Assembly (NCBI GenBank): GCA_964017045.1
Contig: OZ024807.1
Span: 16,171,941 to 16,235,940, forward strand
Origin: Omphiscola glabra
Lineage: Eukaryota > Mollusca > Gastropoda > Lymnaeidae
Direction: 5' to 3'
DNA length: 64,000 bases
Shown piece by piece: positions 18,501-56,561 of this stretch (position 1 is the stretch's first letter; every line of letters starts with the position of its first letter). The position numbers and the translations under genes are program-made. The notes beneath the pieces were generated by a model, which searched no databases, was not told the DNA's origin, and saw nothing but the letters and a program-made list of their open reading frames with translations.

Positions 18501-21500
18501 AAAAAAAACTCTCGAAATGTGGTCAGATGAGGCTGCTTATAAAAAACAGATGCACTTACGAACAACGTCAGTTAGTAGAAAATGTTATGGTTAGATCAAA
18601 TAATCCCCCCACCAACAAAAAAAAAATTATTAAAAAAAATTAAAAAATCAATGTTGTGAGAAACAATGAAAAAACTATTCGATGTGTAAATATTATTCAC
18701 CAATGAGTAAATTATTAATTTTTAATTACTTGTACGCTTTAAAGAATGATAATGTAAATCTCTTAATAAAATTTTAAATTTTCATCCACGTATCTTTTCC
18801 GAATAATATTACCCACTACATACATGAGAAAATAAGGATGTTTGTACCAAATACGTTTCAACGTGGATTAATGAATCTTGATCAAACTTTGGATACGTAG
18901 TTATAAAACTTTATTATCACCAAGGAAATGTGAACGGAGCTTGAATTATTTTTTTAAAATCCCTTTCAGGGATGGGGGCTAAAATGTCCTTTATTTTTCT
19001 TGTATGAGCTACATAAATACAATTTAATACAAAATCTAGATTACAGTTGGTACAAATGCACTTGACAATTCATATCACAAAATATTCACCACTGACCGGC
19101 CCATGAACACTAATTCTATTTTTCTTAAATACCACTTGCAATTTTGTAACACATTTTAATTGGTACAATTTTTTAAAGTTTAACTTTACACTATATCTGA
19201 AGAAAATATATAGGGCTTCTATAATAGTGATCGTTAAACGTCACCTTGTTTTTAAGTTGTATTTTTAAAACAATTTATAATTTCATGTACCCTTATGATT
19301 GTTTTTACATGTTTGATCAAATTTCTTTCTAATTTTCTTTTTTTTTTTAAAACAGTCCTTGACTTTTGTCTTTTAATGCCAAAATGCGAATTAAAAGATT
19401 TTAATTTAGAGAAATGTTTATCGACATGTAAAAATTGGACATAATCTACATGCGGCCCCCCCCCCCCAATAGCTTTACATTTGTCAATGTGGCCCTTCGC
19501 ACAAAACTTTTGCCCACCCCTGATCTAGTTGACAAAGCCGGGTACATTGTCTAGTTGACAAGCCGGGTACATTGTCTAGTTGACAAAGCCGGGTACATTG
19601 TCTAGTTGACAAAGCCGGGAACATTGTCTAGTGGACAAAGCCGGGTACATTGTCTAGTGGACAAAGCCGGGTACATTGTCTAGTTGACAAAGCCGGGTAC
19701 ATTGTCTAGTGGACAAAGCCGGGTACATTGTCTAGTTGACAAAGCCGGGTACATTGTCTAGTGGACAAAGCCGGGTACATTGTCTAGTGCACAAAGCCGG
19801 GTACATTGTCTAGTGGACAAAGCCGGGTACATTGTCTAGTTAACAAAGCTGGGTACATTGTCTAGTTGACAAAGCCGGGTACATTGTCTAGTTGACAATG
19901 CCAGGGACATTGTCTAGTTAACAAAGCCGGGTACATTGTTTAGTTGACAATGCCAGGGACATTGTCTAGTTGACAAAGCCGGGTACATTGTCTAGTTGAC
20001 AATGCCAGGGACATTGTCTAGTTAATAATAAAATTAAACCCTTTCATAATAAATCATACATGAAGATTTTTGGTTATTTACCTGTTACACTGTCGCAGTT
20101 GAAATCCTTGAAATCACTTGTGTTTGATGAGGTGACGACACGGACAATTTGCTCGTCTTGCTGGACCTCGAAGTCGTACCTATCAGACTGTGTCCTGTTG
20201 GGGAGTATCTGCGTCACACACGTGCCACTGAGACCCAGGACAACTTTAATGGCCTGGAAAGGTTTCCCCTGGTCGCTTTCCATCACATACAACGTGTCGG
20301 TCAGTAGTGGGATGTCCAGAACGTCTCCTTGGTTCATTGTTACTTGTGGAGACAGGCGGACATCTTGGCTTGTGATCTAAGTTAGTAAATGTTGGATAAA
20401 GAATATGGTATTTTTTTTTAAATACGTTTAAAAACTGTCGAAATGAGTCAAGTATTTTTGCTCGAACATTCAAGGAGTCATACAATAATAAAAATAATAT
20501 GGCCTTTAGAATTATAACATTTAAAATGTAAATCACATGCGAATACAGTTTAAAAAATTAGTTGTTTAAATTACCAACTATTCTGGAGAAAAGTTTCTAA
20601 AATATGCAGTCGATCTCATTAAAAAATGTGGTGGTTTTTTAAGCTTTAATTTGTTCAATACAAACTTTCAGACGCAAGAACCAACTAAATACCATGAAAC
20701 GTTTGATCGTTTCAATGGACATGTCGCTAACCAAAGCTATCGAACTAACACAAGTAGTAGAATGTAAACAATCGGGTCACCGACTGTTGTAATTTGGTTC
20801 TTAATCTTTCGAGATTACATGAATCTCTGTTGGATTAAGTTCTTTATTTTTTAAATAATTTAGATATAGTTTTGATCTCATATATTTTGAGGCACCCTGG
20901 TAAATCTTTAAAAAAATGTTCACAAAAGATTTAATTAAAGTCTAGCTCCACTCCTCATACGTATATCAGGGGGTATCAATCATGGATATTTCTTCCTCTA
21001 ATTGGTCATGAAAGGCTTCTTGCCATTTAAAAAACAGCCGGCAGTTAGGGTGTTTTAGGCCTTCCCCCATCTCTCATTTCTCTTCCTCCCCCCCCCCCAT
21101 GTCGACGCTCATGATCACGACCATCTTTTTAAAATTGTTTTAAAATAATTCAAAATGTTAATTTTAGACAAATTTATAAAGTTGTCGGTGTAATGAAAAA
21201 ATTAAAAAGTTGTCTTCATCTCAATATAATGACCACATCGCACGCTGTCCTTGTCATTGGAAGTAACCTTAGCAGTTATTTTACAGTTGTCGTAATTTAA
21301 TCAGGACACATGGATATGCAAGTCAAGAGGTATATTCATATTTGAAAAAAATTCATTTTTTCTCATGTAATGTTCTAACTGACCTTTATAATATTCTAAC
21401 TGACCTTTATAATGTTCTAACTGACCTTTATAATGTTCTAACTGACCTTTATGATGTTCCAGCTGACCTTTGTAATGTTCTAACTGACCTTTATAATGTT

Positions 21501-24500
21501 CTAACTGACCTTTATAATGTTCAAACTGACCTTTATAGTGTTCTAACTGACCTTTATTTGAGTCGCATTGTACAGAGCCAGAACTTTCATCAGGACTAAA
21601 TTTGCTGACGTCGATGTCGTCTGGTATGCTGACGTTGTTGTAGTTGACCTCTGAGATATGAACAAACCTCCACCATTGCCGCCTGACTGTATTGGAGATG
21701 ATGCTGAGGATACTAATATTGGCCCTGATAATAAAGACGTTGAATTTTGAGATAGCTTTGCTATCAAACTGGCCAGATCCGTTGACAGGAGCGGTGGCCT
21801 AGAGCCTTGGATCACGTGACGAGACGACGAGACTTCAGCGGGCAGGACCATGTCCAGAGTGTGGGAATAACTGCCAGCCTGGAAACATTGACCATGGTTA
21901 AAATGCGCTGACCCTACTTTCCGTGCTGGGATTTGAATTTCCATTAAAAGAATTAATAATATAATTAGGACCTTAGTTATCTTAAATGCTTAACAAAAAA
22001 TGTGAGTTATGACATGTGTTTCTTTTCAAATTTGTACTGATATATTTATTGTTACTTTAATTTCCTCAACTTTTGCTCGTTGTTAGAGTCATTTTTAATC
22101 TAATTCACATGTTTATTTGATATTGTTGTATAATTTGAAATATATACCTCAAATTATATCTAGTGTTGTATATTTTACCATTCGTCTGCTTTATTTAATT
22201 GACATATATATTGTTATACTAACAATTCCTCTAGTCCCAGCAAACACAGCGATACTTTTACTTGCATACACATAAACCCCACTCATGTCTTGGGGTGCTT
22301 CTAGCTGAATCGTTTGAGACGCCCCCAAACATCTCGTGATGAACCGCTGGCTGTAACATGGGCAAGAGATAGTTGCATTTCAGTGGACTACATGACTAAT
22401 TTAATTCGGTCCCTATCAATTTAAATAACCACTTGGAACAGGCTGGTCCTCACATTCTAGGCGAGTGGATCAGACTTTATTTAATTAGAACCAAGCCGTA
22501 ATATGCGGCATTTGGAAGAAAATTGGCGTAATATTAACATTCAGCTGTCTCTGCAAGCAGAGGTTCTCATGTTTTAGTTTTATTGGCTGAAATAGAACCC
22601 GGGACACCGTATGATGAATTCCATGAATATTTAGACATTTGTTATAAATAAAGTGCTGTGCAAGTGAATTGATGCTACATATTTTTTCATGCTAAAATCT
22701 TGTTCATTTTAGTGTGGTTTATTTTTGCAATAATTTTACCGTTCATGAACCAATTAAATTTGCGTAAAGTTTTCCTCATGTATCATAAACATCCCGTTGT
22801 CTGCTATATAAATGTACAATCCTATTACAAATAGTTGCCTTATGTCTCAACATCTATCAAATCGCTGCCATAAAAATTATATAAATGCAATACAATTAAT
22901 ACAGACAACCAAAAGAAAAATGTCGACATACCTTTCTAAAGGAAAGCCAAAATTATACAAGTTCGCAAGCACAAGTGCATTTGGCATCATGATTGTGATG
23001 TCTGTGTTATCGTGCCATGCAGTCACAGTTATCTGCAATAATCGGGACGTAGCGGCTACATTATTTTATATATCAATATACAATAATCATCGAATTGTAA
23101 CTAATGACAATATGGACCCCTATAGTCATAATCAATAGATAAGACTTGTTGTTTTTTTTTCTCCAGTTTTTGATCGTTGTTATGAGATTTGTTATAATGT
23201 GTCTTACCCTAATATTACTTAAACGTGGAGCTAAAGTGTCCACTTCCACATACGATTTTTTTTTTGTCTACGTCAGGGGTGGGCGAACTTTTTGTGCGGA
23301 GGGCCGCTTTAATAAAGGTAAAGCTGGGGGGCTGCATGTATATTATGTCCAATTTTTAAATGTCGATAAACATTTCTTTATATTAAAATCGGTAATTTCG
23401 CATTTTATTTTTAAAAAATACAAAATTTGAACGAAATTTGATCCAAAATGTTTTAAAAATCATAAAGGTACATGCAATTTAGTAAAATTCAACAAAGTAA
23501 CTTAAAAACAAATTAGCTTTTTTAAATTTCTAAATGCCTTCGAGGGCCGCATAATATCAGTTGCCGGGCTGTAGTTTTCCCACCTGGTTTTCCCCTGGTT
23601 TACACCGATTAAATTTGTAGCGCGAAGCTTTTTACCCATCCCTCCATTGATTGGGAAAAGTTTGTTTACTTTCGAATACGTCCTAATTTGATCTAAAGAA
23701 TGCTATCGGGTGATGCACTATTGCAACATTCTCCCTATAAATAAATCTAGCCGGGAGAGTGATTTGGCTAACTGTCGTTGACATGTACGAGACGTATATT
23801 TTTAACAAGGTTGTACTCTATGTGTGAGTATACATTAATATTTGTATCTAACTAGAATTGCACTTTTTCACTTGCTGTGCTGTAATTTAATATCGTTTTT
23901 ATTTATGTATATGTGATACATATTGTTTGTATTTTTAAATAAATCTAAAGAAAACAAAAATGAATATTGTTATTAACGCTACGTTTGATATCGGTTTCCT
24001 TCGTATACTTATTTTCATTCCTTTGTTACTTATTTTTGAATACACGAGCAGAATCTTAACGCAGAGTAAACTTTGAAAACCATGCAAAAGTAGGTAACAT
24101 TGCAAGGGGAAACATTTCGATCACTCAATACAACGAAGACAACATAGTTACGACTCTCGTCTTTACCGCTAACACTGAAGTGGGGCCTGTTTATTTTAAG
24201 AACAGTACAAGTTCTGAAACAGTGACGTCTGAAGGGGTGTGTGCTGAGGGGGGCGGGGGTCCCGTGGCAGCTGCCTTTTTTCCTTTATATAGTGGGGCAG
24301 CATCTTCTTTCCTTTACATAGAGATGTGGCATTTTCTTTCCTTTGTATAGAGATGCGGCATTTTCTTTCCTTTACATAGAGATGCGGCATTTTCTTTCCT
24401 TTATATAGATATGCGGCATTTTCTTTCCTTTACATAGAGATGCGGCATTTTCTTTCCTTTGTATAGTGATGCGGCATTTTCTTTCCTTTACATAGAGATG

Positions 24501-25764: not shown

Positions 25765-25796
<32 letters not shown>

Positions 25797-28700
25797 GATA
25801 AGACACATAGAATTGCTATGAAAAGGCACAAAGACTTGCTATGATAAGACACATAGTCTTGCAAGAATCAAGGATCTCTACCATTATTAATGGGTTTAAG
25901 CTATGTCTTCTGAATAATTGTAAAATGTGCACTGCGCTCCAATTGCGTCCAATCCTCAACTGTGACCATGTCTCGGTGACTGAAATAAAGATACACCATT
26001 TCCACTTCAGCTGCAAAAAAAAATTTTATAATAATAATTTTAAAATAGAAATAAAAAAAGTATTTTGCATTAATGCTTAGCCTCTATGTGTGTGATGGTA
26101 TTTTTCCCCATAATGATTAGCCTCTCTGTGTGTGATGGTATTTCTCCCCATAATGATTAGACTCTATGTGTGTGATGGTATTTTTCACCATTATGATTAG
26201 CCTCTATGTGTGTGATGGTATTTTTCACCACTATGATTAGCCTCTATGTGTGTGATGGTATTTTTCACCATTATGATTAGCCTCTATGTGTGTGATGGTA
26301 TTTTTCACCACTAATACCATGCCAAACATTTCTCCTCTGCCAAAAAATAAAAATGATTTTTAAAATTACTGCTGATAGATTTCGTTATGTTATAAAAAGT
26401 ATCTTCACGAGTAGTCTGAAATTAAAAACAGCATTTTACCTGTCGATACAACTAGTTGTGAAAGTTTGGTTGAGTCGAACATTCCAGACGGTACCACAAT
26501 AAGATACGTGTATTTAAGAACATCTGTTGGTATGTAGAAGTGTTTTTTATCAACATTAAATTATTTTTCTGATAGAAAAAAATGAATCGGTGTCAGGTCA
26601 TAAATAATAGTGAAAATTATAATAATATTTGATAGTTTACAAAGCTCATTGCCACACGGCATTTTTGAACATTTTGGGAAAAGGAAGACTAAATAAATGA
26701 AATAGTTTTCAAAATAATTTTTTTATACTAGATTAGGTACCTTTAATTATAACGTAAGAAAAAATTTTTAAAAAAATTAAAATGTACAAAATTTAAGAAA
26801 TACAATAAATCTAATATGATTTTCTATAGTTCACTCAATTTCAGTAAACAGCCCTTAACTTTATTGACCAAATATCTGACGTTTGAGATACTTGATTTTT
26901 TTAAAGATATAACAATAAATAGAAATTAAGTTTCGGCTTCATCTAAATATTTGAAACATAGAATATTGTAGACTAGTAACTTTTTAATAAATAATTAAAA
27001 TATTTTAACTTTTTATAAATATCAATCTAGTCTAATATATATTATTTGGCCTGGATTTTCAACCTCTTTCATTTTACTTAACCTGTTTACTAATTAACTA
27101 ACAAAGTTCCTAAACTCATGATTAATTTCAAGCAAATGATATTAATGATAGATTTTTTTTCTATTTTACACATCTAATATTTAGGCAAAATGTCAAAATT
27201 TAGATTTGTATGGAACTTTTTAAAAATGTAACTACCCGCCCGTGAAACTAAAGGACACAACTTTTGAAAGCTACTGTTAAATATCTTTGCAACATGCGAT
27301 AGTTGTAGATTATGTTATACTTTACATTTAATACAAAATGGCCAGGCCTCGGTTATGCTGCCATTGACGGCACGGAGTCCTATCGTCTTGTGTTGTTCGC
27401 GCCCTGCCATCCAGGTCAGATGAACTCTGTTCTCATCGTCTGCTGTTACCGGGTCGGGCAGCCAATCGGATAGAGAGACGTTAGATTTGGATCGGATCCA
27501 TCTAAACACTCCGTTGTTGTATGTGTCATTGGCCGCCAGAAATACGTGCACATCATTGGGGAACTCTGAAGAAAGAGGAACACATACACATCATTTGAGG
27601 GACTCTGAAATAAGAGAAACACGTGCACATAATTGGGGAACTCTGGAGAAAGAGGAACACATACACATCATTTGGGGGACTCTGAAATAAGAGGAACACA
27701 TAAACATCATTGGAGAACTCTGGAGAAAGAGGAACACATACACATCATTTGGGGGACTTTGAAATAAGAGGAACACATTAACATCGTTGGAGAACTCTGA
27801 AATAAGAGGAACACATAAACATCATTGGAGAACTCTGGAGAGAGAAACAGAACAAAGACATCAATTGGGTTTAATCCAACTACACCTAGCTAATGAATAA
27901 TCATACCCTTGTTTCTTACACATGTTTTCTCTGACCGAAATGCCGCATTGTTCTTTGTACAGGCAACTCTTGATGTATAAGATAAAATAAGATAAAATAC
28001 ATTTACTGATATATATAAATGGAGATTTGTGGGCGGGGGTTGGGGATGGTATTCGTTGTACGTTTTGTTCAGTCTTAAAAATCCTCTTTCAGGTCTGGTT
28101 CTTCCTCAGAATTAGTCTTTAGCAAGACTTTCGTGGAATATTTTTGTGGCAAGAATAACGTTTGAGTTTTTGTGTGTTAGTTGTAATTATGAATACATTT
28201 TTTTCTTTTTGTTTGAACGGAGCTCTCTCTTTTTTTTTTTTCTTTTTTTTTTATAAACCGCCCCCCCCCCTTGCTTACCATCGTTCTCACATATCGGTAT
28301 TCATATTTATTTGTGCAATATCCTGAATGTAGGTGGTTCCCTTAGTTAAGAGGAACAAAATGTAATCCCAAAACCACCATGAGCAGAGAAGGTAACAAGA
28401 CTGACTTGGAAATAACCAAATCCCAGAATCGTTAGCTGTGTATATGGCTATTCTGTCAACCGGGAAGCCAATGTTGACGTGTACCAGGGATGAAGGCACA
28501 TTTGAGCCACCACGGAGTAAGATTGACGGATCCTGCTTTGCTGACCAGTTGATCGAAATGTTCTGTTGAAAATTAACCCGTGTTATACAATAAAGATAGC
28601 GATGAGAAAAGATAAATGATAATTTCAGGTTTATTTTAACTACGTTTTGATCCTCTGTTTTATTATAAAATAAATAAAAATATATATTAGAAAACATATA

Positions 28701-31700: not shown

Positions 31701-34700
31701 AACTGTTTATACCCCCTCCAAAACTCTGGCCAAACAGATGAGATTATTAAAAACAATGAAAACTACATCTGGTAAGAATATCTATACCCGTCTACACGTT
31801 CAAAGAGTACATCTGGTAAGGGCATCTATACCCGTCTACAAGGTCAAAATAAACATTTGGTAAGGGCTTCTGTACTCACCAACAAGTTGAAGTAAAGATT
31901 GTTTGAAAAAGTTGTAGACATCTTGTCCTGTTAACTCAGCCAAATTGCCAGCACGACACGGGTCCTGTTATGGAAAGTAGCACATCAATATTTTAATGAC
32001 GAACATCTCGATTACGTAACCATTAATCTAATCTATGACACTTATTTTGTTTTGCGATGGCATTCTTGGAAGAAAGACGGTTTTTAGATTGTTTTGTTTG
32101 TTTGTTGTTAGTGGTTTTACTTGTTAGTCTGTTTTTGTTTGTTTGTTCATTTCTTTTATTTATTTGTTTGTATTTGCTGCCCGGGGGGGGGGGGGGAGAG
32201 AGAAATCTGTTGCAAAGATAATATTGCTACGTATTTCAAAGGAAAGATAACCATCACTAGAAACAACCAGAAAGGTCAGTTCAACGTTGTATTTGTGTGA
32301 AAAAAATATGGAGAGCGACTACACCGCGTAAAAGTGTGACGTCACTACACCATAACAAGATAATGTACCGTATGAAACAATGCGTAATTAATATATTGTA
32401 TTTGGTCCATTTTCGAGGCAGAAAGATTAGTTAAATTAGATATACCATTGCGAAATAAATTATCTTTAAATATTTTTAGGTAAAAGTTAAAGATTTTTTT
32501 TAAAAATTTCTTTTGTTTGGACAATAATAAAACTAACCATGTCCTCGTCCAAATGTACAGGCGTTTTTGAAAATGTGTAACAATTCATGTTATAATATAT
32601 CCCGCCTGGGTCACAGGGGCTACCAACATCTGAAATTCAAAATATCTGAGTTCAACAACATTCGCTAATTTGATAAGCTGATAACATAGAATACAAATCA
32701 GAAGACGGCGATGGCTTTATTTTTTGCATATTGGTGTAAAGCCTGTATTTGGTTTGTCACTGAGACGGGTGTGGACCGGTCCTTTCTTCGAATCTCGAGG
32801 ACGCTTAAAAAATGTGCACATCTCTATAGTCAAGTTCTATTTGTAACGTATGACAGCTTCCGAAGAGTGAAGTCTTTGCATGTCTCGTTCTTTGTTGTCT
32901 CCGAAACGTTCATTTGATTGTCTCGTCTTTTGCGTCAAAGCTTTAGAATGACTTGTTGCACTATATCCTTTGTATATTTATGACAATAAATTGGCGTTTA
33001 GTCAAAGCTTTAGCCGACTTGGCAGGACACGTATAAAATTTACGTCTATTTCCTCAGGCCTTCCAACCACCTTGTTTTTTTAAACCCTCACTGAGTAGCC
33101 CTGGCAACCAGTGAAATATCTTCAATACCAGGCACAGAAACATTGTGTGAATTCCCTCTACATCAATAGGAGCCAGAATGATCAATTCATTGATCATGAG
33201 CCCTTAAGATATTGAAGAAGATGATGATGCAAACCCTAGAGCTAACATTTCATTTATCTTTTCACTATGGCTGAAACGTCTTTATTCTTTATTTCCAAAT
33301 AGTGCAGTTAAACTTTGTTTGAATTCACACTCATAGAATTTGATCGGTTCATGAAACCATGTCTCGAATCACCACTCAAACCAAACATTCTAGGTTTTGG
33401 AGTAAAGTTCGTATTGAATTTTATCTCTGAACCTATCATTCACCTAACGTTACAAGGGCTCCCACTATCTCTAACATTAAGGGGCACCACATTTACATAA
33501 AAAGATACACTTTTTTACTTTTAAAGTCCCCCGAGCTTCAAACAAACAAGAGACTAGATCACCTAGCCTCAAAGTAACCAAGTCACCAAGCAACCAAGCC
33601 ACCAAGTCACCAAGTCACTAAGCCACCAAGCCAACAAGTCAGATTAACTGATAAATATTAGATGATTCCTTTTAATGAACTATTATAAGTACTTTCTCGC
33701 AATGGATGGGATTCGTTAACCTTGGATGACAACTCATCTAAGAGAAGGCACACTCTGAAAACAAACCCGGAGATGGCGTCAGTAGGTGGTTAGACATTGT
33801 CACGGTAAAAATTCTGGCAACTCCTTCGACGTAGAACGCATAAAAGGCGAAGTTAAGGACTCAAGATATTCTGTTGATCATCTAGAGCATCCTGGTCTAT
33901 TCCGAGTCGTCTTGACAAAATCCTATCATATGATCAAATAGACAAGGACGAGAGAGTGAGGCTGACGAATTGAGCAAATCTCCCTCTTTTTAAAAAATAT
34001 TTCAGCTAAAGTCAAAGCGTCTACTCAGGTCGAAAAATGCCTTGGTCCTCTTTGCATGCGAAGGACGAACCAACAATACAAAAATAATAAATGATGTCAC
34101 GTTATTCTATGTTCACAAAACATAAACTGTCTATTCAAACACCTACACTTTTCACATATAAAACTCTGGTTCAGCCCACAAGAAACGTTCTGATAGAAAG
34201 GTAAGTTCGTCTTATTGTTGGTGCCTGCAATGCTCAAACAGTGTCGTTCAACATTTCCCCCGGTCACATTGCCAGCAGTAGAGTGCCCTTCATAAACGCT
34301 TCCAATCCACCAATTGGCTTCTGAAACAATTAATAATAAAGGAATTTCATTTTCTTTTCTGTAATTGGTTGATTTCAAGAGCTGACATATAGGCATTAGA
34401 ATCGTTAAATTAGGGGAAAAACTATCCGTGTTTAGTGCTCAAATTAAAAAACAAAACATCATGTTACGAAATTACCATTATCAACAATAATGGAGAGAAA
34501 GAAACATATTTTTTAACTTATTTAGGATTTGAGTTGTTTTCAATGAACTAACATTAAAATATGACATGTCCTCAAATCTGAAACTCTTCTATGTTCGGGT
34601 TACAGCAAGTATCTTCATCATCATCATGTCCCGTAGGCCCTTCGACCGTTGGGGCGCCACAGATGACATGAAAACTGTTCTTCTTCATTACTCTTGGTCT

Positions 34701-36943: not shown

Positions 36944-36949
36944 CACTAA

Positions 36950-39290: not shown

Positions 39291-39293
39291 ATA

Positions 39294-40215: not shown

Positions 40216-40389
40216 GTACCGCTTAGTTATTGATCAATGGGCAGAGTATTGAGTTCAACTAAAGAATGAATGATATGGCGCGACGTGGAAAATCGTCTGG
40301 TCATCAGAAAATAAATGTTTTCCTGAATAAGAGTGTAATGAATACATTTTATGCCTATTGTCAAGGGGATTTTATGTATTTGTCATGCG

Positions 40390-40730: not shown

Positions 40731-40739
40731 TTAAGAAAA

Positions 40740-41075: not shown

Positions 41076-41079
41076 AATA

Positions 41080-44000
41080 AGAAAATTTTTTTTAAAAATA
41101 AAATACATATATATCTATAAGAAAATAATTTTTTAAAAATAAAATACATACATATCTATTAGAAAATATTTTTTTTAAATAAAATACATACATATATATA
41201 AGAAAATAATTTTTTTAAAATAAAATACATACATATCTATAAGAAAATAAATGTTTAAAAATAAAATACATACATAACTATAAGAAAATAATTTTTTAAA
41301 TTAAAATACATACATATCTATAAGAAAATAAATTTTTAAAAATAAAATACATACATATCTATTAGAAAATAATTTTTTAAAGATATAATACATACATATC
41401 AATAAGAAAATAATTTTTTTTTAAAATACATACATGTCTATAAGAAAATAATTTTTAAAAATAAAATACATACATATCTATAAGACAATATTTTTTTACA
41501 AGTAAAATACATACATATCTATTAGAAAATAATTTTTAAAAATAAAATACATACATATCTATAAGAAAATAATTTTTTAAAAATAAAATACCTACATATC
41601 TATAAGAAAATATTTTTTTAAAAATAAAATACATACATACATATACGAAAATAATTTTTAAAAAATAAAAACATACATATCTATAAAAAAATAATTTAAA
41701 AAAAATAAAATACATACATATCAATAAAAAAAATTTTTTAAATACATACATATCTATTAGAAAATAATTTTTTTTAAATAAAATACATACATATTTATAA
41801 AAAATAATTTTTTAAAAATAAAATACATAGATATCTATAAGAAAATAAATTTTAAAAATAAAATACATACATATTTATAAGAAAAAAAAATTTTAAAAAT
41901 AAAATACATACATATCTATTAGAAAATAATTTTTTAAAAATAAAATACATAAATATCTATAAGAAAATAATTTTTTAAAAATAAAATACATACATATCTA
42001 TAAGAAAATAATTTTTTTTAAATAAAATACATACATATCTATTAGAAAATAATTTTATAAAAACAAAATACATACAAATATATAATAAAATAATTTTGTT
42101 TTTTAAAAATACATACATATCTATAACAAAATAAATTTTAAAAAATAAAATAAATACATATCTATAAGAAAATAATTTTAAAACATAAAATACATACATA
42201 TCTATAATAAAATAATTTTTAAAAATAAAATACATACATATCTATGAGAAAATAATTTTTTAAAAAATACAAACATTTCTATAATAAAATAATTTTTTAC
42301 AATAAAATACATACATATCTATAAGAAAATAATTTTCTTTAAATAAAATACTTACATATCTATTAGAAAATAATTTTTTAAAATAAAATACATACATATC
42401 TATTAGAAAATAATTTTTTTTAAAAATACATACATATCTATAAGAAATAAATTTTAAAAATAAAATACATATATATCTATAAGAAAATATTTTTTTTAAA
42501 TAAAATACATACATATCTATTAGAACATAATTTTTTTATAAATAAAATACATACATATCTATAAGAAAATAAATTTGTAAAAATAAATACATACATAACT
42601 ATAAGAAAAATTTTTTTTTAAATAAAATACATACATATCTATTAGAAAATATTTTTTTAAAACTAAAATGCATACATATCCATAAGAAAATATTTTTTTA
42701 AAAATAAAATACCTACATATCTATAAGAAAATTAATTTTTAAAAATAAAATACATACATATATATAAGAAAATAATTTTTTTAAAATAAAATACCTACAT
42801 ATCTATAAAAAAATAAATTTTTAAAAATAAAATACATACATGTCTATTAGAAAATAATTTTTTTTTAAATAAAATAATTACATATATATAAGAAAATATT
42901 TTTTTAAAAATAAAATACATACATATCTATAACAAAATAAATTTTTAAAAATAAAAAACATACGTATCTATAAGAAAATAATTTTTAAAAAATAAAATAC
43001 ATACTTATCAATAAAAAAATAATTTTTTAAAAATAAAATACATACATATCTATTAGAAAATAATTTTTTTTAAATAAAATACATACATATCTATAAGAAA
43101 ATAATTTTTTTAAAAATAAAATACATACATATATATTAGAAAATAATTTTTTAAAATAAAATACATACATATCTATAAGAAAATAATTTTTTAAAAATAA
43201 AATACATACATATCTATAAGAAAATAAATTTTTAAAAATAAAATACATACATATCTATTAGAAAATAATTTTGTTTAAATAAAATACATACATATATATA
43301 AGAAAATTATTTTTTAAAAATAAAATACATACATATCTATAAGAAAATAAATTTTTAAAAATAAAATACATACATATCTATAACAAAATATTTTTTAAAA
43401 ATAAAATACATACATATCTATTAGAAAATAAGTTTTTTTAAATAAAATAAATACATATCTATAAGAAAATAATTTTTTAAAAATAAAATACATACATATA
43501 TATAAGAAAATAATTTTTTAAAAATAAAATACATACATATCTATAAAAAAATAATTTTTTAAAAATAAAATACATACATATATATAAGAAAGTAATTTTT
43601 TAAAAATAAAATACATAAATATCTATAAGAAAATAATATTTTAAAAATAAAATACATACATATCTATAAGAAAATTAATTTTTAAAAATAAAATTCATAC
43701 ATATCTACAAGAAAATAATTTTTAAAAATAAAATTCATACATATCTATTAGAAAATTTTTTTTTTTAAATAAAATACATACATATCTATAAGAAATTTTT
43801 TTTTAAAAATAAAATACATACATATCTATAAGAAAATAATTTTTTAAAAATTAAATACAATCATATCTATTAGAAAATAATTTTAAAAAAAATAAAATAC
43901 ATACATATCTATAAGAAAATAATTTTTTAAAAATAAAATACATACATATCTATAAGAAAATAATTTTTTAATAATAAAATACATACATATTTATAATAAA

Positions 44001-44253
44001 ATAATTTTGTTTTTTAAAAATACATACATATCTATAACAAAATAAATTTTTAAAAATAAAATACATACATATCTATAAGAAAATAAATTTGTAAAAATAA
44101 AATACATACATAACTATAAGAAAATATTTTTTTAAAAATAAAATACATACATATCTATTAGAAAATAATTTTTTTAAAAATAAAATACATACATATATAT
44201 AAGAAAATAATTTTAAAAAAATAAAATACATACATATCAATAAAAAAATAATT
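41080..44253. repeat. 3.2-kb AT-rich satellite, about 42-bp units
   Basis: About 75 units with core aaaataaaatacatacatat followed by ctataagaaaataa and a T-run. The T-run varies in length. Very high AT content. It stops abruptly at 44253 against LINE sequence. Confidence 0.95.
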
Positions 44254-46140
44254 TCGCACTCATCCAGGAGTCTTGCATCTGGCGCAGTTGTAATTAGACC
44301 TGGCTGCTGATGTTCCTCAGTGCAGCTGTTTTTACTGCTGACTTTGGGTCATCTTTGATGGCTTTGTACGCCCGAAGTTTTTGCTCAAGTAGCATTTGGA
44401 TTGCTGTGTTGTTTTCATCAAACCAATCCCTGTGTTTTCTGATAGAGCGTCCGAGGCGCTCAGCGGGTTTGTTATACACCGTCTCATTAAGTGTTGTCCA
44501 CGCTGCCTCCGCGTCCTGGTTGTTCAGTATTATGGAATCAAGGCGTTTATCCAGGGTGTCAACAAAGTTTTCTCTCACATCAGGGATCTTCAGCTTACTG
44601 ATGTTGAGGCGTTTCGGAGCTTTGGTGGCCTGAGGTCGTCTCTTAGGTTGGGTGTGAATTTTCAACTTTGAGACGATGAGGCGGTGATCCGTCCAGCATT
44701 CTGCGCCGCACATGGCCTTAGTCACTCTCACATCCTGCCGGTCCATATTTCTGACGATGACATAATCTATTAGGTGCCAGTTTTTCGAACGGGGGTGCAT
44801 CCAGGAGGTCCTGTTGCGCGTAGGCAGGCTGCGTAGGCAGGCTAAATGTGGTGTTTATTATTAGAAGGCCGTGTTCAGCACATGTCTGAAGTAGCAGTAG
44901 GCCGTTGTTGTTGCACTTTCCAACACCATTCATCCCCAACACTCCTCCCCAGGATGTGTAGTCACTGCCGACACGTGCATTTTAAATCTCCAAGAATTAT
45001 GAGTTTGTCAGCAGTCGGTATGGTGGAGAACACAGTGTTCAAGTCCTCATAAAACTTTTCTATGGACTCTTCTGTGTTGGTCATGGTGGGTGCATAGGCA
45101 CTGACTAAAGTGGCAGCCTTCCTTCCATGGCAGAGGGGGAGTTTCAACGTCATGAGTCGGTCATTGATTCCCTCTGGAGATCTGGAGAGCTTGCTCTCAA
45201 GAGAGGTTTTGATAGCAAAGCCAGCTACGGCTTCACACGTTGCATCGGGGTCTCGTCCATTCCAGAAAAAAGAATAGCCAGCAAGCCTTTCCGTGAGTTC
45301 ACCTTTGCCAGAGAGTCTGGTTTCACTGAGGGCGGCGATGTCTATGTTGTATCTGACAAGTTCATGAGCAATGAGCGCCGTGCGTCGTTGAGGTCGGCTT
45401 TTAGAGTCCCTGTCAAGCAGTTTGCGGGTGTTCCACGTGGCAATTTTAAGTGAAATAGATTTTATCTTTGATTTTCGACCGCAAAAATTGGGTCCTCGTC
45501 GACCCTGTTTAGCCTGCCAGGGTTTGAAGGAGCAGGGAATACTTTGGGCTCCTATTCTAGCCCCCTTCCTCATGCATTTAGGAGAGCGTGCCCGTCGCCA
45601 CAGTATTTGGGATGATGGGAAATGGATGACTTATGACTTGCGCGGGTGACTTTGTTTAAAGTGAGGAACAGTTGCGCAGTGTCAACCTCACTCTCTCGTC
45701 CGGACCCACTGTGTCCAGTGGCAAGACTAAGTCAAGACGAGTGGAGATGGGTACGGATGCAGTGGATGACCAAGATATTCTACGTGCCTCATCTTGCTCT
45801 ACACACTCCACGGTGCGTTGCTGTAATCACCTTCTCATACGTTGAACCCAAATGGTCTCCTCCGCAGGATCGGACGACGTCCAGGCTTCGCATGCAATAG
45901 GTAGGCAGTGCCAATATCACCGAGGGTTTGAGGCCCAACATCCACCCTCGCCTGATTTAGCCGGCTAGAGGAAGCTGTTGCCCAGGGTATGGACGCTGTT
46001 GCATGCTAACATCTGCTGGGTTGCACAGGTGACAGTTTAGTTGCAGGAGAGGACCAAGGCGGACGAACTGTTCCTAGGCCTAGGAGCACAACGTTTTCCC
46101 CCTTGAGGGGTACTACCTCTGCCTGTACAACCCATTGTAA
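44254..46140 (-). mobile_element. Truncated non-LTR retrotransposon (5' leader and endonuclease)
   Basis: The minus strand holds a GC-rich leader (about 45574-46140) and endonuclease frames at 45573-44962, 44942-44718 and 44800-44294, out of frame with each other. Motifs: [77 protein letters not shown] and CWTDHRLIVSKL (catalytic His). The usual GDFNAR motif is broken to GDLKC. No reverse transcriptase follows; sequence stops at the satellite at 44253. Inactive; APE-type LINE, clade not certain. Confidence 0.85.
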
Positions 46141-47560: not shown

Positions 47561-47924
47561 TGAATGCGTCATTGATTTTATATTTTTAATAATAAATACA
47601 TTTGTATCTTTATTTCAACCTACAGTACTCTATTAGTAATAAAGGAAATCCCTTGCTTCGGAGTTAACAGCCCTTGCAGACACACTTGAATAATTTTGTT
47701 TTTTACTTTTTTGTTGGAAATGTGGGATGTATGACTAATATTTCCCTCCGTTCACTCCATTAACCCCATACAGTTTAACCCCCTACAATTTAGTCCCGAA
47801 ACACTATAAATTGTTGTTCCTGTTTTCATCATTTCTTTCCCCGTTTTTATGGGTGGCTTTTTATGGATGAACGACATGCTCCCCTCTCCTTCCCAACAGC
47901 TTAATTAAAAACATGTAAATTAAT

Positions 47925-48050
47925 TATAGTGAGTACAGAAACACCACCTTAATGAAAGTGAGTACAGAAACACCACATTGTGTGACTAGCTTGTATCTCA
48001 TGAAAGTGAGTACAGAAACACCACCTTGTGTGACTAGCTTGTATCTCTAT
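47925..48050 (+). repeat. Short minisatellite, 3 copies
   Basis: Core gtgagtacagaaacaccacc followed by ttgtgtgactagctt. Confidence 0.8.
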
Positions 48051-48070
48051 TTTTAATCACGGTGTCATTG

Positions 48071-48268
48071 CAGTGGCGTCGCTAGGATAAGTGCCGAAAA
48101 AGTAAAGTGTGGGACGGGTGGGAGAGAGTAGATTTTTGCCACTCATCCCCTTAGAGCCAAAAAAAAAACCTCCGTAGTTTGCCGAAAATGCTAACCCCTC
48201 AACATAAAGAAAATGTATTCCGACCGTTTTGAACCGCGCCCTTCCGGCTTCCCTCTCCAACACCACTG
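48071..48268 (+). mobile_element. MITE-like element, degenerate
   Basis: Begins cagtggcgtcgctagg and ends near ccaacaccactg, an imperfect inverted match. No clear target-site duplication. Confidence 0.4.
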
Positions 48269-48400
48269 TTAGGAACGATGTATTCATATGGTTGTCATCA
48301 TGAAACAGATCTCGGGTATTTTATAAGAAACCATGTCTTGATATTATTGCAGTAATAATTACGCCTTACCCATTAGAAGCCATGAAAGCAATGCCCTTAC

Positions 48401-48677
48401 CTTGTTGGACGTCGAACGTTTGGTTCCCAAAGGGTGACATAGTTCTCCGGCCCAAGGTTTGCGTGTAGGTCCGTTTTGACCACGCTACCTTTCTGAGTTT
48501 GCACGTGGTAAATCCCTGGTGTCGTGTAGCCGCCGGTGAAGCTCTTGGTAGCTCTTCCATTGTCTGCTTCATTATATAGTTTGAGATAGTAAAGCAGGTT
48601 TAAATATTTTTTTTTTTGCTGCAGTGTTTGATTACACAGCTTGGTGGTGAAATCAAAAAGGATGCCGTACAACGCGT
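48401..48677 (-). CDS. Probable exon B of a lectin-gene relative (possibly broken)
   Basis: The minus strand is open from an acceptor at 48679-48678 (GGAATTTAG) to a donor at 48400 (ACAAG|GTAAGG). It encodes ALYGILFDFTTKLCNQTLQ, FTGGYTTPGIYHVQTQKG and GPENYVTLWEPNVRRPT. An overlapping frame reads FDVQQGKGIAFMASN up to a second donor near 48368, which also looks protein-like, so a one-base frameshift is possible. Weak resemblance to IgGFc-binding-type extracellular repeats. No complete gene could be assembled. Confidence 0.45.
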
Positions 48678-49034
48678 CTAAATTCCATTGAAAACGTTAC
48701 CAAAAATACTTAGTGATTTGTATTTTTGTGGAATTTTCATTTTTTAAATTTTTATTGAAAAAATCTTAAGCAAAGTAAAAAAAAAAATTATAATTAAAGT
48801 GAGATTTACTTTTGCCGACAATCAATAAATATCGCTGCCCTACAATGTATGAGGCTTCCATTGTTAACATTAGTTTCTTTCACAATTATAGTAGTTAATC
48901 ATCGTTAAGATAAGCGCTCCTTAAACACTGGTACTCAAAATTTGATCCTATAAATGAAGTAGCCAAGATTTGACATAAAACAGGGGGGGGGGGGGGAATT
49001 TGTTTAAAGACAATAATTGTCTCTTTCCTCCCAC

Positions 49035-49190
49035 CTGATTCAATTTATTCCTACAGCTATAGGAACTGCAGTTGAAGTTATCCAGCCTCGCATCACCAAT
49101 GAAGTAAGCAGTTTGGTCGCCTTGTTGGATAAAAAAGTTGTAAGCCTGTCGTTCTGATGAGTGACAAACTAAGATTACCCCACATATCAC
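49035..49190 (-). CDS. Probable exon A, similar to the end of lectin exon 15
   Basis: The minus strand encodes CGVILVCHSSERQAYNFFIQ and FIGDARLDNFNCSSYSCRNKL, and ends at a donor AATCAG|GTGGGA. The stretch AYNFFIQQGDQ..DNFNCSS parallels [17 protein letters not shown] in lectin exon 15. No in-frame ATG is seen; an acceptor may lie near 49207. Probably an exon or relic of a second member of that family. Confidence 0.5.
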
Positions 49191-49460
49191 TAGATTTATT
49201 TGATTACTAAAAATAAGTTTACAGCATTTATCACTATAATTGTGTGAGTACTTAAACTAAGTTTACAGATTGTATCACTAGATTCATGTGATTACCTAAA
49301 CTAATATTACAGCATGTATCACTAGATGTATGTGAGTACTTAAACTAAGTTTACAGATTGTATCACTAGATTCATGTGATTACCTAAACTAATATTACAG
49401 CATGTATCACTAGATGTATGTGAGTACTTAAACTAAGTTTACATAATGTTTCTTCTTCTA
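49165..49460 (-). repeat. 44-bp minisatellite at the start of exon A
   Basis: About six units in an alternating two-type pattern (88-bp higher order); core gtatcactagatgtatgtga. The innermost unit overlaps the start of exon A. Confidence 0.8.
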
Positions 49461-49839: not shown

Positions 49840-50000
49840 TAAACTAACAGAAAAATGTGACAATAGATTAATACTTCTGTTTAAATAATTTAACTAACAG
49901 AAATAGTGACAATAGATTAATAATTATGTTTAAGTAATTTAAATAACAGAAATAATGACAATATATTAAAACTTCTGTTTGAATAATTTAAATGAGTGAA
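49840..50000 (+). repeat. 48-bp minisatellite, 3 copies
   Basis: Core aacagaaatagtgacaatag followed by attaatacttctg. Confidence 0.8.
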
Positions 50001-50469
50001 ATTGTTGAGTAATTACATTCGTTTCGATCCCATTCAAAATCTTTAAAAATTTTAATTCAATAAACACAAATACAATTAAATATTGTTTATTTATATCTAC
50101 TTGCAGAGAATTCCCCCTAGAGACTAGGTAAAACATTTAGCGAAAGTCTAGGGCCATCAGTTGATTAGTCTCGGGGGTCTGTGAGCAAGAAATCTCAAAG
50201 TCCATAAAGCAATGTTCTCTCATCTTAATAAGCTCCAGGCCAAAAATATAAAGTTAGAATGTCTTGTCTGTGTCACGAAGAAAAAAAGAATGGCAGTGGG
50301 GGCGCTGTACGCCATACAGGAAGCAGCGTTTTCTGACTGAAAACGTAAACGCATATCTTTAAGTTACATTTTGTTTATTAAGTCATGAAAGTGGTTCACT
50401 GAACAATTGAAAAGACACATGAGTCGAAATTTTAATTTGATTGTTAACTAGAGACCATGAGTCACAATT

Positions 50470-50880
50470 GTAACATTAGAGATTCACTGTCTTAGATATA
50501 TAACCCTTTAAATAGTTATGGTTTCTATTTGAGATCCACTGTCTAGATACCTAACCCCTCAAATAGCTCTGTTTTCTATTTGTGACCAACTTTCCTAGAT
50601 CATCTGACACTTTAATAAATCTATTTTCACTATTTGAGACACACTGCCCTAGATTATCTGAACCCTAATAAAGCTATGTTCACTATTTGAGACCCTCTGT
50701 CCTAGATTATCTGGCCCTTAACAAATCTATTTTCACTATATGAGACCTAATGTCCTAGACTGTCTGATCCCTTACAAAGCTATGCTCATTATTTAAGACC
50801 CACTGTCCTAGATTTATCTGACCCCTAACAAAGCTATGTGCACTATTTGAGACCCACTGTCCTAGACGATCTGATCTCTG
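50470..50880 (-). repeat. About 52-bp minisatellite starting at the GT14 stop codon
   Basis: About 8 units with core cactgtcctagattatctga on the plus strand. The first unit contains the last codons and TAG of the GT14 gene. Confidence 0.85.
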
Positions 50881-53800
50881 ACAAATGTCTGATTTCTATA
50901 GTAAAACTCGTCAAACTGCTTCACGCCCAGCAGCTCATCTCTTGTATCGTTGATCAATTTCTCTTCCAGACAGGATATGACGACACGGTCCTCTGTGATA
51001 AAAAATTTGTTTGCAAACAGTTCTGGTGCGTGCCCGAGTCGGTAGAGGTCGCCTGTAGGAAAGAGGTTGGCTTTACAGTTTACATTAATGAAGGAAAAGA
51101 AACGAATTTATTCTTCAATCGGTACAGTCAATGGATGTACAAACAAGGTGTTAAGTTTCAATCTGTACTGTCAATTGGTATTTAAAAAAAAATTTTAAGC
51201 GGTACAATAAATTGATGTACCAACAAGGGGCTCAATTTTAAGCGGTACAATTATTTGATGTATAAACAATGCATTCAATTTCAAGAAGTTATTTCAGTTC
51301 ATGGGTTTTGTACCCTGTACCTTCAATGGGTCAGGGGTAAATAGATTTAATGAAAGACATAGTTTTCAAGAGTGACATACATTTCAGGAAGCACATATAT
51401 TTAAGGAGGGATATCGATTTAAGTAAGGACATATATTTAAGGAGGGTGATAGATTTCAAGAGGGACATAGATTTCCACTAAGGACATACATATCAGGAGC
51501 GCATACATTTCAGGAGGGACACAGATTTCAGGAGGGATATAAATTTAATAATGGACATAGATTTCATGAAGGACATAGATTTCAGGAGTGACACTGTGAT
51601 TGAGATATTAGTATATCAACAAAACCTAAGAATTATGTACGCTAACACTACAATGACGCCTTACCTGTGCTTAGAATACATATTGACCGTACGGTATGCC
51701 CTGCGCACGTGTTCGGGTCGCCATACCAAATCTTATAACGCGTCAGAAATGAGGGCGCTATCAAGTCTGGATCATCTGTCGACAGTATTCAATATTACAT
51801 TACTGTCAATTGAAAATGTGGGGTGTCATGGGCGTAAGTCCATCTCCGTTATACAAAGGTGTAACTGGTGAATGAGAGTATGGATAAGCACATCTCCTTG
51901 ATACAAAGGTGTAACTGATGAATGAGAGCATGGGTAGGTCAATTTCGTGATACAAGGGTGTAACTGATGAATGAGAGTATGGGGTAAGTCCATCTCCGTA
52001 ATAAAAAGGTGTAACTGATGAATGAGAGTATGGGGTAATTCAATCTCCGTGATACAAAGGTGTAACTGATGAATGAGAGTATGGGGTAATTCAATCTCCG
52101 TGATACAAAGGTGTAACTAATGAATGAGAGTATGGGGTAATTCAATCTCCGTGATACAAAGGTGTAACTAATGAATGAGAGTATGGGGTAATTCAATCTC
52201 CGTCTTAAAAAGGTGTAACTGATGAATGAGAGTATGGGGTAAGTCAATCTCCGTTTATACAAAGGTGTAACTGATGAATGAAAGTATGGGTAAGTCAATC
52301 TCCGTGATACAAAGGTGTAACTGATGAATGAGCGTATGGGGTAAGTCAATCTCCGTGTGATACAAAGGTGTAACTGATTAATGAGACTGAGAGCATGGAG
52401 TAAGTCTATCTCCGTGAGACAAAGGTGTAATTGCTGAATGAGTTTATGGGTTTTGTTAACGCTATATAAATTTAGCTGACCATTGGTCCAATAAATGACC
52501 ATGCAGAAACACATAATGAACTGAAAATGTGATTGTTTATAATTACTCGTATTTTGGACCAGTCCTTTAAACTGAATAAATACTAGAACAAGTTTGAAGT
52601 CATTAGCAAGTTCGTTTTGAATATAATTTTAAAAGTCATAAAAACAAAGTTTTTCGTATAAATACTTTATATGCATTTTTTGCTTGCATTTATGTAATTG
52701 TAAGTAATTTATCATTTATGTGATTGTAGTAACTGATTTTTTGTATGTGAATGGTTCTTACCAAACTTAGTGCATGTAAAACCTAATACACTAAAGATAT
52801 AGTTTAACCCAAATACGTCACCTACAACAAGTACATAGCAGCTACACAAATAATCTCACACCAAAATACGCACAAATTTAATAAATCATAATTCAACTTC
52901 CCGAAAAAAACAGGAAACACTGATTTTTTGGGAGTAGAGGTGAAAATTTGATAGAATGTGTTGTCATCGCAATCTAGTTAGTCATAGGATGACGGGAAGT
53001 GGGTCAATTAACATTCCGAAGATTTTGCCAGAAACACATAAAAATGGGAAGGAACGTGATCACGTCACTCCAATACTTCCATACTTCATTGGCTCTCTTT
53101 ACAGGCAGGCATTGTCTGTTCGCTGTCACAACTCTTTCTCTGCTTCATGCCATTCTTATCTCACTGAACTGCTTTCTATATAATCACCCTTTCGCTTTGT
53201 TTTCCTCCGCAGACACGCATATGTTTTCTGTTCCCAAGACAAGCGCTAAAACACATGAACGAGCTTTTTCTTCCTGAACCCCCAAACAATGGAATTCTCT
53301 CTCATGACACATCCGAAATATACCGAACATCCAAGCTTTCAAAACTGCACTCAAGACACATCTCTTCAAACTCTACTATGCCGACTCATTATCGCCCGCC
53401 CCTGACCGATAAACATGTTCGATGATGATGGGTGCCGAACATGGCAAGACAGGGGTAAATAGTACTTGGGTGGGCGAGGTCAATGTTTTTACAAAGCTGT
53501 TTTAAAATGAATAGTTTTATGTAACTGTATTTAATGTCATGCTTCTGTTTTTTCTGTTTGCTAACTTTCATGTGAAGCGCGTTGAGTGTAGCCCTAGGCC
53601 GGGGTACGCTGCTATAAAAGACCACTTTAATAATAATAATAATATAAGGGATTTAATATTTAAAATTGTCGGGAATATCAGGCGTCATGTATGCTGTGTG
53701 GGGAGGGTGTTGTTTTTTAAATGATTATTTGTTTTAAAAGTTACGACATCCAACATGCTTATAATTATTTTATTTATTTTTCTAATGAATGTATGTAAAA

Positions 53801-56561
53801 CTCAAACAACGTACCTTTGAATGTCCCTCTCAGACCCACTCAAACAACGTACCTTTGAATGTCCCTCTCAGACCCACTCAAACAACGTACCTTTGAATGT
53901 CCCTCTCAGACCCACTCAAAAAACGTACTTTTGAATGTCCGTCCCTCTCAGACCCACTCAAACAATGTACCTTTGAATGTCCCACTCAAACAACGTACCT
54001 TTGAATGTCCCTCTCAGATCCACTCAAAAAACGTACCTTTGAATGTCCCTCTCAGACCCACTCAAAAAACGTACCTTTGAATGTCCGTCCCTCTCAGACT
54101 CATTCAAACAACGTACCTTTGAATGTCCCTCTCAGACCCACTCAAACAACGTACCTTTGAATGTCCCTCTCAGACCCACTCAAAAAACGTACTTTTGAAT
54201 GTCCGTCCCTCTCAGACCCACTCAAACAATGTACCTTTGAATGTCCCACTCAAACAACGTACCTTTGAATGTCCCCCTCAGACCCACTCAAACAACGTAC
54301 CTTTGAATGTCCCTCTCAGACCGAGCTGGGGGTTAAAGTTCAACGTGGCAAAGAAGGCTTCATCCGGTACATCTATGTACGTTGTCCAGTTCAGCAGACT
54401 CTCGGCCGTGTCATTGTGAAGTATGTAATCTACAAACAGTCTGGAGAGGTCAAGAAAACAAAGTTTTTCTGGATTTACAAGGCGGTTTTTTTTTTTTTTT
54501 TTTAAAGAATGGTTTATTTAGACTATAAATGTATTATCAGATTTTAATGATTGGATAAAAAGTGATATTTTCACTGTTACATAACAATGTATAATGGGAT
54601 GAATAATTAATGGTGATTTTGGTGTTGAGGGCAGTGAGTGTAATGTTAAGATAACAGCGATGAATACATGTGATGCTCAGCTGCAATCATTTCCATGTTT
54701 TTTTATTGGATGTTTGTTCCTCTTTTTATGTTCTTAGTTGATATAAATCAGCAAGTCCCTATCTCTCATTTTTGGATAGTGGACAGAAGCGTAAGGGACG
54801 TGGAGAAGTGGACATAGAGCAGTGGACATGGAGTAGTGGACAATAGCGTAGTGGACGTGGAGTAGTGGACATAGAGTAGTGGACGTGGAGTAGTGGACAT
54901 AGAGTAGTGGACCGGGAGTAGTAGACATAGAGCAGTGGACGTGGAGTAGTGGACATAGAGCAGTGGACGTGGATTAGTGGACAATAGCGTAGTGGACGTG
55001 GACTGTTGGACATAGAGTGGACGTGGAGTAGGGAACATAGAGTAGTGGACGTGGACTGTTGGACATAGAGTGGACGTGGAGTAGTGAACATAGAGTAGTG
55101 GACGTGGAGTAGTGAACATAGAGTAGTGGACGTGGAGTAGTGGACATAGAGTAGTGGACGTGGAGTAGTGGACATAGAGCAGTGGACGTGGAGTAGTGGA
55201 CATAGAGTAGTGGATGTGGAGTAGTGGACAGAGCAGTGGACGTGGAGTAGTGGACATAGAGTAGTGGACAATAGAGTAAAGTACAATGGAGTAGTGGACA
55301 ATATAGGTGAGGACGTGGGGAGTTGAAATTACCAATTAAGTGCAATAGTAATTTGATATCACGATCTTAGCACTGCATGTTTTATATATATATATATATA
55401 TATAATGTTCGTGAAAATATTGTTGCTTGTTGCCTTCACTTTGTCTACCACTGTGTCAACATGCAGCTTTAAGCCAGCTCACCTACTGGCCGTTATATGG
55501 ACAGATCCTTTTACTGGGCGAAGTCCGTCCGGCGGTGGGTCCTTCCAGCGTTCTGTGTTAGCGCTTGGTTATGTGAAAAGCGGAGAGATAAGGAATGAAT
55601 TAGAGGCAAATGTATTAACAATTTCAAAGCATAAAATTGATTTATCAATGTTTTGATTGTTATGTAATTCACAAAAGCGTTGTCCAACACACGAGTTATA
55701 TTGTATTCTGAGCTGTCAAAACATCAAACGCGTCTATTCAGCTGCCTAAGAACAGCCATGCCAACAAAATCATGCATCAATTAAAAAATGTCCATACTTT
55801 TTAATGGTCCCTTCAATGTTATTGGCCCCGTTGTAAGACTTGAGTATCTTGACCAGCTCAAAGTTTGTCTTCAGTGGGAACTCCTGGCCAGTCAGGTTGA
55901 TGAAATATTTCCACTTCCTGTAACGCCAGAGTTCCTTCATACAGATCAGATCCGCTTCAAGCACTGTGAATGTCCCCCACTGTACATCCACTCTCGTCGC
56001 GCTCAGAAACACGCTGCTGAAACACTCGGACATGGCCTTGATTGCGCCGAAGTAGCTCTCGGATGCCTTCAGGTCCACGTGGATGCAGTAGTAATTCTGA
56101 GGCCTGTAGATGGCCCGCAGTAATCTCTCCACCATTTCTATGTCTGCATAGACCACCAGCGAGAACGCTATAGGGAAATTCTTTTCATCCTCTGTCAGTG
56201 ACGACATCAAGTAGCCTCTGGTTTGACGGAAAACATCGCAGTCCTCTGTTAAATCCAGATAATTTTGTTCGTCCAGCGACGCGTTGAATGTTGGTGCCAA
56301 AGCTAGCGCTTCCTCCGTGTAGTTTTCGTCGCCGTCAAATATGCGCGCGCAGCTAATGTCTCTAAACCTAAGCTTGCTGGCCACACTGTGGACGTTGTTT
56401 ATTTCGTTTCTTAAAGACGCGTGCATTTTTAAATAGCTCTGAAAAAGTCTGCTGATATCGGAATTTTGGTTTAGGGAAAAGTTAAAAATAGCTGCAGACA
56501 TCACTAACAGTAATATTATCAATTTGTATCGTTTTGCCGCTCCAAAAGTAAAGTATTTCAT
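50862..56561 (-). CDS. Core-2 type beta-1,6-N-acetylglucosaminyltransferase (GT14 family), 5 exons
   Basis: Exons 55798-56561, 55483-55563, 54322-54440, 51665-51775 and 50862-51052, all GT-AG and all in phase, encode 421 residues, the usual length for C2GnT enzymes. Layout: short cytosolic end, type-II membrane anchor (YKLIILLLVMSAAIF, about residues 12-31), stem, then the Golgi-luminal GT14 domain. Recognisable blocks: IAFSLVVYADIEMVERLL, NYYCIHVDLKA, VQWGTFTVLEADL, YFINLTGQEFPL, RLFVDYILHN, FLTRYKIWYG and HAPELFANKF. Family role: transfer of GlcNAc from UDP-GlcNAc in beta-1,6 linkage to O-glycans. Which acceptor this one uses is not shown. Every intron but the first holds a minisatellite, and so does the region after the stop. 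A possible AATAAA lies at 50374-50379 (minus). Confidence 0.9.
51115..51290 (+). repeat. About 57-bp minisatellite, 3 copies
   Basis: Core gcggtacaataaattgatgt. Last intron of the GT14 gene. Confidence 0.75.
51345..51600 (+). repeat. Degenerate ggacatagattt-type minisatellite
   Basis: Units of 20-25 bases around aggagggacatagatttca. Ends about 65 bases from GT14 exon 4. Confidence 0.75.
51830..52455 (+). repeat. 52-bp minisatellite, about 12 copies
   Basis: Core acaaaggtgtaactgatgaa. Begins about 55 bases upstream (transcript sense) of the GT14 exon 4 acceptor. Confidence 0.9.
52620..53055 (+). repeat. Dispersed repeat, copy 2
   Basis: Second copy of the repeat at 9405-9840, same orientation. 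Lies in GT14 intron 3 and runs into the LINE fragment at about 53060. Confidence 0.7.
53060..53640 (+). mobile_element. 5'-truncated LINE 3' end (CR1/L2/jockey-like)
   Basis: Encodes, in shifted frames, the conserved RT tail: SLALFTGRHCLF, LFSSADTHMFSVPKTSAKTH and RAFSS, then a degenerate NSLP...FKTALKTHLFKLYYAD-like stretch. The 3' end reads gtgaagcgcgttgag and ends in (TAA)n at about 53625-53640. It sits inside GT14 intron 3, opposite in strand to the gene. Confidence 0.75.
53799..54320 (-). repeat. 38-bp minisatellite starting exactly at the GT14 exon 3 donor
   Basis: On the minus strand exon 3 ends CTCG|GTCTGAG. About 13 units begin at intron position +1; each contains GTCTGAGAGGGACATTCAAAG followed by GTACGTTG, so each carries a second consensus-like donor (AAAG|GTACGT). 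Confidence 0.9.
54770..55305 (+). repeat. About 28-bp minisatellite, about 19 copies
   Basis: Core gtggacatagagtagtggac. GT14 intron 2. The long minus-strand frames here (180-190 codons) are by-products. Confidence 0.9.

Follow-up and report, generated by a model that had tools for sequence, protein, structure and literature searches.

Tandem duplications that resemble minisatellites and run across exon-intron boundaries, at donors as well as acceptors, are described in amphioxus under the name of mirages (PMC3087553, PMC3902484); these reports deal with the globin genes BflGb6 and BflGb9, with Adh3 and with TnC, and compare lancelet PGBD5. According to them, many of the repeats hold AG/GT signals, splicing is reported to be undisturbed, and the cause of the arrays is called unclear there too. 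An initial annotation of a 64-kb stretch of Omphiscola glabra DNA (hereafter the window, i.e. the whole stretch analysed) had reported tandem arrays seeded on exon edges in two neighbouring genes, together with the statement that no described mechanism links repeat birth to splice junctions. The amphioxus accounts overtake that statement, since arrays of this type are described in them; among the papers listed by open-access literature searches there was no report of mirages in a mollusc.

Like mirages, the snail repeat units span the boundary with exon-edge sequence (at 54301 and 27565, and with a short overlap at 21552 and 31880), 5' and 3' boundaries are both hit (three donors and one acceptor), and the repeats hold AG/GT signals. 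Unlike the amphioxus cases, the snail arrays occur in another phylum, three of them are common to a pair of inverted paralogues, and they can be judged by how densely arrays lie around them and by how many junction arrays chance would give; moreover, splicing is reported to be unaffected in amphioxus, whereas the snail arrays are known here from DNA sequence. Intron gain by tandem genomic duplication (PMC4974935) also copies splice-site sequence, but the snail case described below for a GCNT-like gene makes no new intron. With ordinary intronic minisatellites, including the other arrays of the window, the junction arrays share unit size, copy number and purity, and mid-intron arrays (26 bp at 19524-20023 and 32 bp at 18199-18451) are likewise common to both paralogues; the difference is that the unit of a junction array holds exon-edge sequence and a splice site. 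The snail junction arrays thus belong to a known kind of structure, their number in the sample reached does not convincingly exceed chance, and they extend amphioxus-type mirages to a mollusc.

Both genes concerned lie on the minus strand of the window, and their exon models, all of them predicted from sequence, were built from homology and splice consensus, with searches over a genome of 745 Mb in 37 contigs. The GCNT-like gene (a core-2/I-branching enzyme) has PF02485 on exon 1 in Pfam, and this exon is 91% identical to Lymnaea stagnalis protein P0028. Its five predicted exons (E1 to 55798, E2 55563-55481, E3 54440-54301, E4 51775-51665 and E5 51052-50862) were fitted to gastropod relatives, with splice phases inspected by eye. 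E3 was placed by tblastn with gastropod proteins, PF02485 being weak and below the cut-off on E3 alone; the last exon, E5, was placed by tblastn and from the sequence itself, with its stop codon at 50864-50862. Eleven long exon-1-type GCNT matches, the window's own included, lie on contig C15 in several clusters.

The other gene, gene 1, runs from 35681 to 14409 with 14 predicted exons. A protein search with the joined exons (7994 candidates scored) found no relatives, and Pfam gave nothing useful on the exons taken singly. A close inverted copy of the whole gene lies at C15:16060290-16089844 (L033 to L035), about 82 kb from the left edge of the window. Between the two copies third codon positions are the most divergent in 10 of 13 exons (one tie and two exceptions, the first exon being partly covered), and 12 of the 13 align free of gaps, the remaining one carrying a 9-nt insertion. 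Three gene-1 exons bear the junction arrays described below, all on the minus strand: 21552-21798, modelled by homology to the paralogue with its splice sites read from the sequence; 27325-27565, by homology to the close paralogue and seven distant relatives; and 31880-31964, whose protein sequence is 68% identical to that of its counterpart in the paralogue. One step of the model, from exon 25027-24914 to exon 21798-21552, is out of phase, and an exon may be missing there. A Thr-rich, in-frame 21-bp array of mucin-like look lies at 14879-15451, within the final exon predicted for gene 1.

At the predicted gene-1 donor 21552, a 21-bp TRF array of 9.0 copies (21368-21557, minus strand) spans the junction with 6 bp of exon overlap and repeats the donor in each unit, such that AAGGTCAGT occurs 8 times, the real donor included. 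The 44-bp array at 31765-31875 (2.5 copies, minus strand, TRF) stops 5 bp short of the predicted donor 31880, and alignment shows a short overlap of the repeat unit with the exon. Its donor word is degenerate in the window and well preserved in the paralogue, where the counterpart array (L033:5852-6193, 7.7 copies) holds TTGGTGAGT 4 times. The third donor array, of 28/38-bp units at 53800-54322 (minus strand, TRF), belongs to E3 of the GCNT-like gene. A donor had been placed at 54322; the predicted donor does lie inside the array, but 54322 is the array edge and the exon ends at 54301, the overlap being 22 bp. Here the unit repeats the exon tail with GTACGT, and the intron carries the 20-nt E3 tail plus GTACGT 7 times unchanged and 3 more times with 1-3 mismatches.

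The predicted acceptor 27565 of gene 1 is covered by a 38-bp array (77-bp as a dimer) at 27538-27837 on the minus strand (TRF), with 28 bp of exon overlap. This array repeats the pyrimidine tract, the AG and the exon head; CAG plus the exon head is copied upstream 4 times, with 1-2 mismatches each, and the repeats hold 6 acceptor-like sites. At the end of the GCNT-like coding region an array of 51-53-bp units (50475-50885, minus strand, merged from two overlapping TRF rows) takes in the stop codon ending at 50862 along with the final 24 bases of coding sequence; the coding end has 3 degenerate copies downstream, with 4-7 mismatches of 24.

The sixth case, an acceptor near 49200, did not hold. 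The 44-bp array at 49166-49443 (minus strand) lies against an incomplete exon that belongs to the remnant of a gene, as comparison with an intact relative of gene 1, L032, reveals: DNA homology of the window to the L032 exon at about 667-958 begins only at L032 position 856 (window 49157-49037), the earlier part of the exon is absent from the window next to the array, and the frame of the following exon is broken by small indels relative to L032. The site is thus a broken exon and not a splice acceptor. The remnant itself spans 47900-49260 on the minus strand, its exon being truncated where the array begins. In the intact relative an array at 1836-2712 (within region 1815-2712) begins 21 bp into the intron past a predicted donor. 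The list of six array-bearing exon edges is therefore partly confirmed: five stand, i.e. four predicted junctions and one stop codon, and the claim that the arrays repeat the splice signal itself is borne out at three donors and one acceptor, with exon-edge sequence copied into the adjoining intron.

The GCNT-like gene family indicates which sequence was the source of the copies. The motif G-T/S-F/Y-K/R-G, encoded by the E3 tail, recurs at the corresponding donor of all six GCNT paralogues fetched from the same chromosome (6 of 19 E3-type matches outside the window). No array and no copy of the tail was found at any of the six homologous donors (at most 3 mismatches; TRF score of at least 50; 252-258 intron bases), the sole sub-threshold row among them being a 20-bp TRF row of score 33 at L054. 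Because all six share the motif at the donor without an array, the E3 exon end predates the array, and the intron copies derive from it. The birth of a new intron by tandem duplication was also considered and is rejected, the donor position being the same in all six paralogues without an array.

The inverted copy of gene 1 enables the arrays to be followed between genes. All three gene-1 junction arrays are common to both copies, with copy numbers in window and paralogue of 9.0 and 22.7, 7.5 and 5.2, and 2.5 and 7.7, respectively, for the 21-, 38- and 44-bp arrays, these being differences between paralogues. The paralogue also has arrays unlisted in the window copy, e.g. 39 copies of 34 bp at L033:4370-5696. 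Comparison of 8 window units of the 21-bp array with the first 17 paralogue units gave 1.71 and 1.82 differences between 21-mers within each gene and 3.28 between genes. The unit that touches the exon shows 1.86 and 1.06 differences to its own array, as compared with 3.71 and 2.38 to that of the other gene; because it thus groups with the array of its own gene, homogenisation extends to the predicted functional donor. The junction arrays turn over by concerted evolution, with gene-specific units including the exon-adjacent one. The paired inverted genes, with array turnover reaching the predicted donor, may be useful as a natural system for studying spliceosome choice among identical sites.

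How unusual such junctions are depends on the density of arrays. TRF arrays of period 7 or more, after merging, number 48 and make up 23.3% of the window; elsewhere in the genome they make up 22.0% of 200 kb at 20 loci, a non-random sample with a range of 1.7 to 51%. With 48 merged arrays in 64 kb, an array in most long introns is expected, and the observation that nearly every long intron holds one is correct (all 8 introns longer than 1.1 kb, and 12 of 17 overall). Arrays cover 3 of the 34 junctions in the window, and one more junction lies at 5 bp from an array; by simple arithmetic, naive free placement at this coverage would cover 7.9 of the 34, a figure that, given selection in exons, is no more than a ceiling. 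The initial annotation had proposed comparing the distance from array to junction with shuffled placement. When the 21 intronic arrays were placed randomly in the 17 introns, with 30 bp of exon overlap allowed, the 4 junction arrays observed compared with 1.30 expected (P = 0.042), a value that is optimistic because the window was picked for this very feature. In distant gene-1 relatives, with exon edges set by a simple splice score, no array falls in the interval from -30 to +5 bp at any of 36 edges (18 exons); the closest one lies at a distance of 21 bp, at the donor of L032 exon m. Pooling with 42 further junctions (these 36 and 6 from the GCNT paralogues, with no hits) gave 4 observed and 2.03 expected (P = 0.15), the close inverted paralogue being excluded because its arrays are inherited. 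The weak excess in the window therefore shrinks on pooling, although a modest excess at junctions may be present.

We consider it probable that random short tandem duplications in a repeat-dense genome account for these structures, some of them having happened to span predicted junctions and been tolerated. Short tandem duplications would arise often throughout such a genome, and at a junction the duplicated unit comprises exon-edge sequence together with the donor or acceptor. A duplication across a junction would leave an intact splice site touching the exon, and the mRNA would be unchanged if that copy were used; junction duplications may be tolerated since the copy next to the exon would probably remain functional. 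Duplications inside introns would be tolerated in the same way, and those inside exons would usually harm the protein, except in frame, as in the Thr-rich array of the last gene-1 exon. Later slippage or unequal exchange could then spread decoy sites into the intron, shift copy number and homogenise units. The duplication mechanism, the near-neutrality of its products and the non-use of the decoys are inferred. The resulting null model is a simple one: with tandem arrays making up about one-fifth of the sampled sequence, some junctions would be swallowed without a special mechanism.

The alternative that survives best, which we nevertheless regard as unlikely, is a hotspot model, with tandem repeats arising preferentially at splice junctions in this lineage, e.g. 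through transcription-linked breaks or RNA-templated repair. The window permutation favours it, but the further junctions (none of 36 and none of 6) and the pooled value do not. Word counts across the genome provide a second line of evidence, on the premise that if donors commonly seed arrays, then donor words should be met as tandem triplets more often than the same words written backwards; splice-site weights and consensus words were taken from general knowledge. The two donor words point opposite ways: AGGTGAGT gives 2348+2870 = 5218 triplet matches compared with 1813+1514 = 3327 backwards, a 1.57-fold excess above the control consistent with a hotspot, whereas AGGTAAGT gives 871+1166 = 2037 compared with 2234+1966 = 4200, and the sums are 7255 and 7527. 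The acceptor word TTTTCAGG lies below its backward control (233+176 = 409 and 399+647 = 1046), which argues against the hotspot. Since big arrays dominate match counts, distinct arrays were counted as well, by eye and among the matches listed on C1, giving 10 for AGGTAAGT and 6 for its backward control in the first 5.8 Mb, 8 for AGGTGAGT and 11 for its control in the first 12.4 Mb, and hence 18 compared with 17 for both words.

Repeat units were also scored as donors. In a set of 95 arrays, taken from the window and from 11 loci that had not been picked for likeness to the 21-bp array, 16, 9, 9 and 7 units have a donor score of at least 6, 7, 8 and 9, respectively, compared with 12, 9, 6 and 3 reversed units. 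The figures are 23 compared with 11 at a score of at least 8, and 15 compared with 4 at a score of at least 9, in a sample biased by its make-up, i.e. the paralogue and loci picked for likeness to the 21-bp array. Donor-like units in sense orientation exceed those in antisense by 3 to 2 in 24 gene arrays of the window and by 4 to 0 in 23 paralogue arrays, which is in the direction that a hotspot would predict; these counts, from the gene-1 copies and the GCNT-like gene, are not independent, the arrays being partly the same by descent. The proposed special link between repeat birth and splice junctions thus finds a weak excess that shrinks as junctions are added, and donor words that are not enriched genome-wide. 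The more far-reaching proposal, that junctions are favoured birth places of minisatellites, with decoy ladders and concerted evolution up to the functional site providing a source of intron sliding and of new exons or introns in a protostome, appears to us improbable.

Selection for splice flexibility, also put forward in the initial annotation, would have the arrays kept because their decoys give flexible splicing or variants in protein length. In quality the decoys do equal the real donor (AAGGTCAGT is present 8 times and AAGGTACGT 10 times, the real donor counted in each), and the 21-bp unit corresponds to 7 codons, with one of its frames open in the window. However, three of the four unit lengths (38, 44 and 38 bp) are not multiples of 3, the frame that is open in the window meets a stop codon in almost all paralogue units (most of which are open in a different frame), and the six GCNT paralogues manage without an array. 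The frame-shifting units and the stops in the paralogue make such selection very unlikely. An error in the exon models, by which ordinary repeats in mid-intron would have been mistaken for junction arrays, is equally hard to credit: the models do rest on homology and splice consensus, gene 1 is without database relatives and has its phase mismatch, and the 49200 site was indeed mis-modelled, but gastropod proteins and the donors of all six fetched paralogues are in agreement with the edges of the GCNT exons, and the gene-1 copies diverge as coding sequence would in most exons, by third positions and by the near absence of gaps.

A dispersed, introner-like or otherwise transposed element that carries splice sites to many junctions is a further candidate: a query carrying the 21-bp array matches 62 places in the genome, and in six of these that were inspected the array periods range from 19 to 27 bp. 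The window also holds a 41-bp AT-rich array of 78 copies at 41077-44254, where local GC is about 10%. Endonuclease-like and reverse-transcriptase-like reading frames at 3486-6546 have, by eye, the look of a non-LTR element. Very similar reading frames lie near both ends of the window (10-384 and 63609-63968) and, judged by eye, are likely the antisense strand of ankyrin-like genes.
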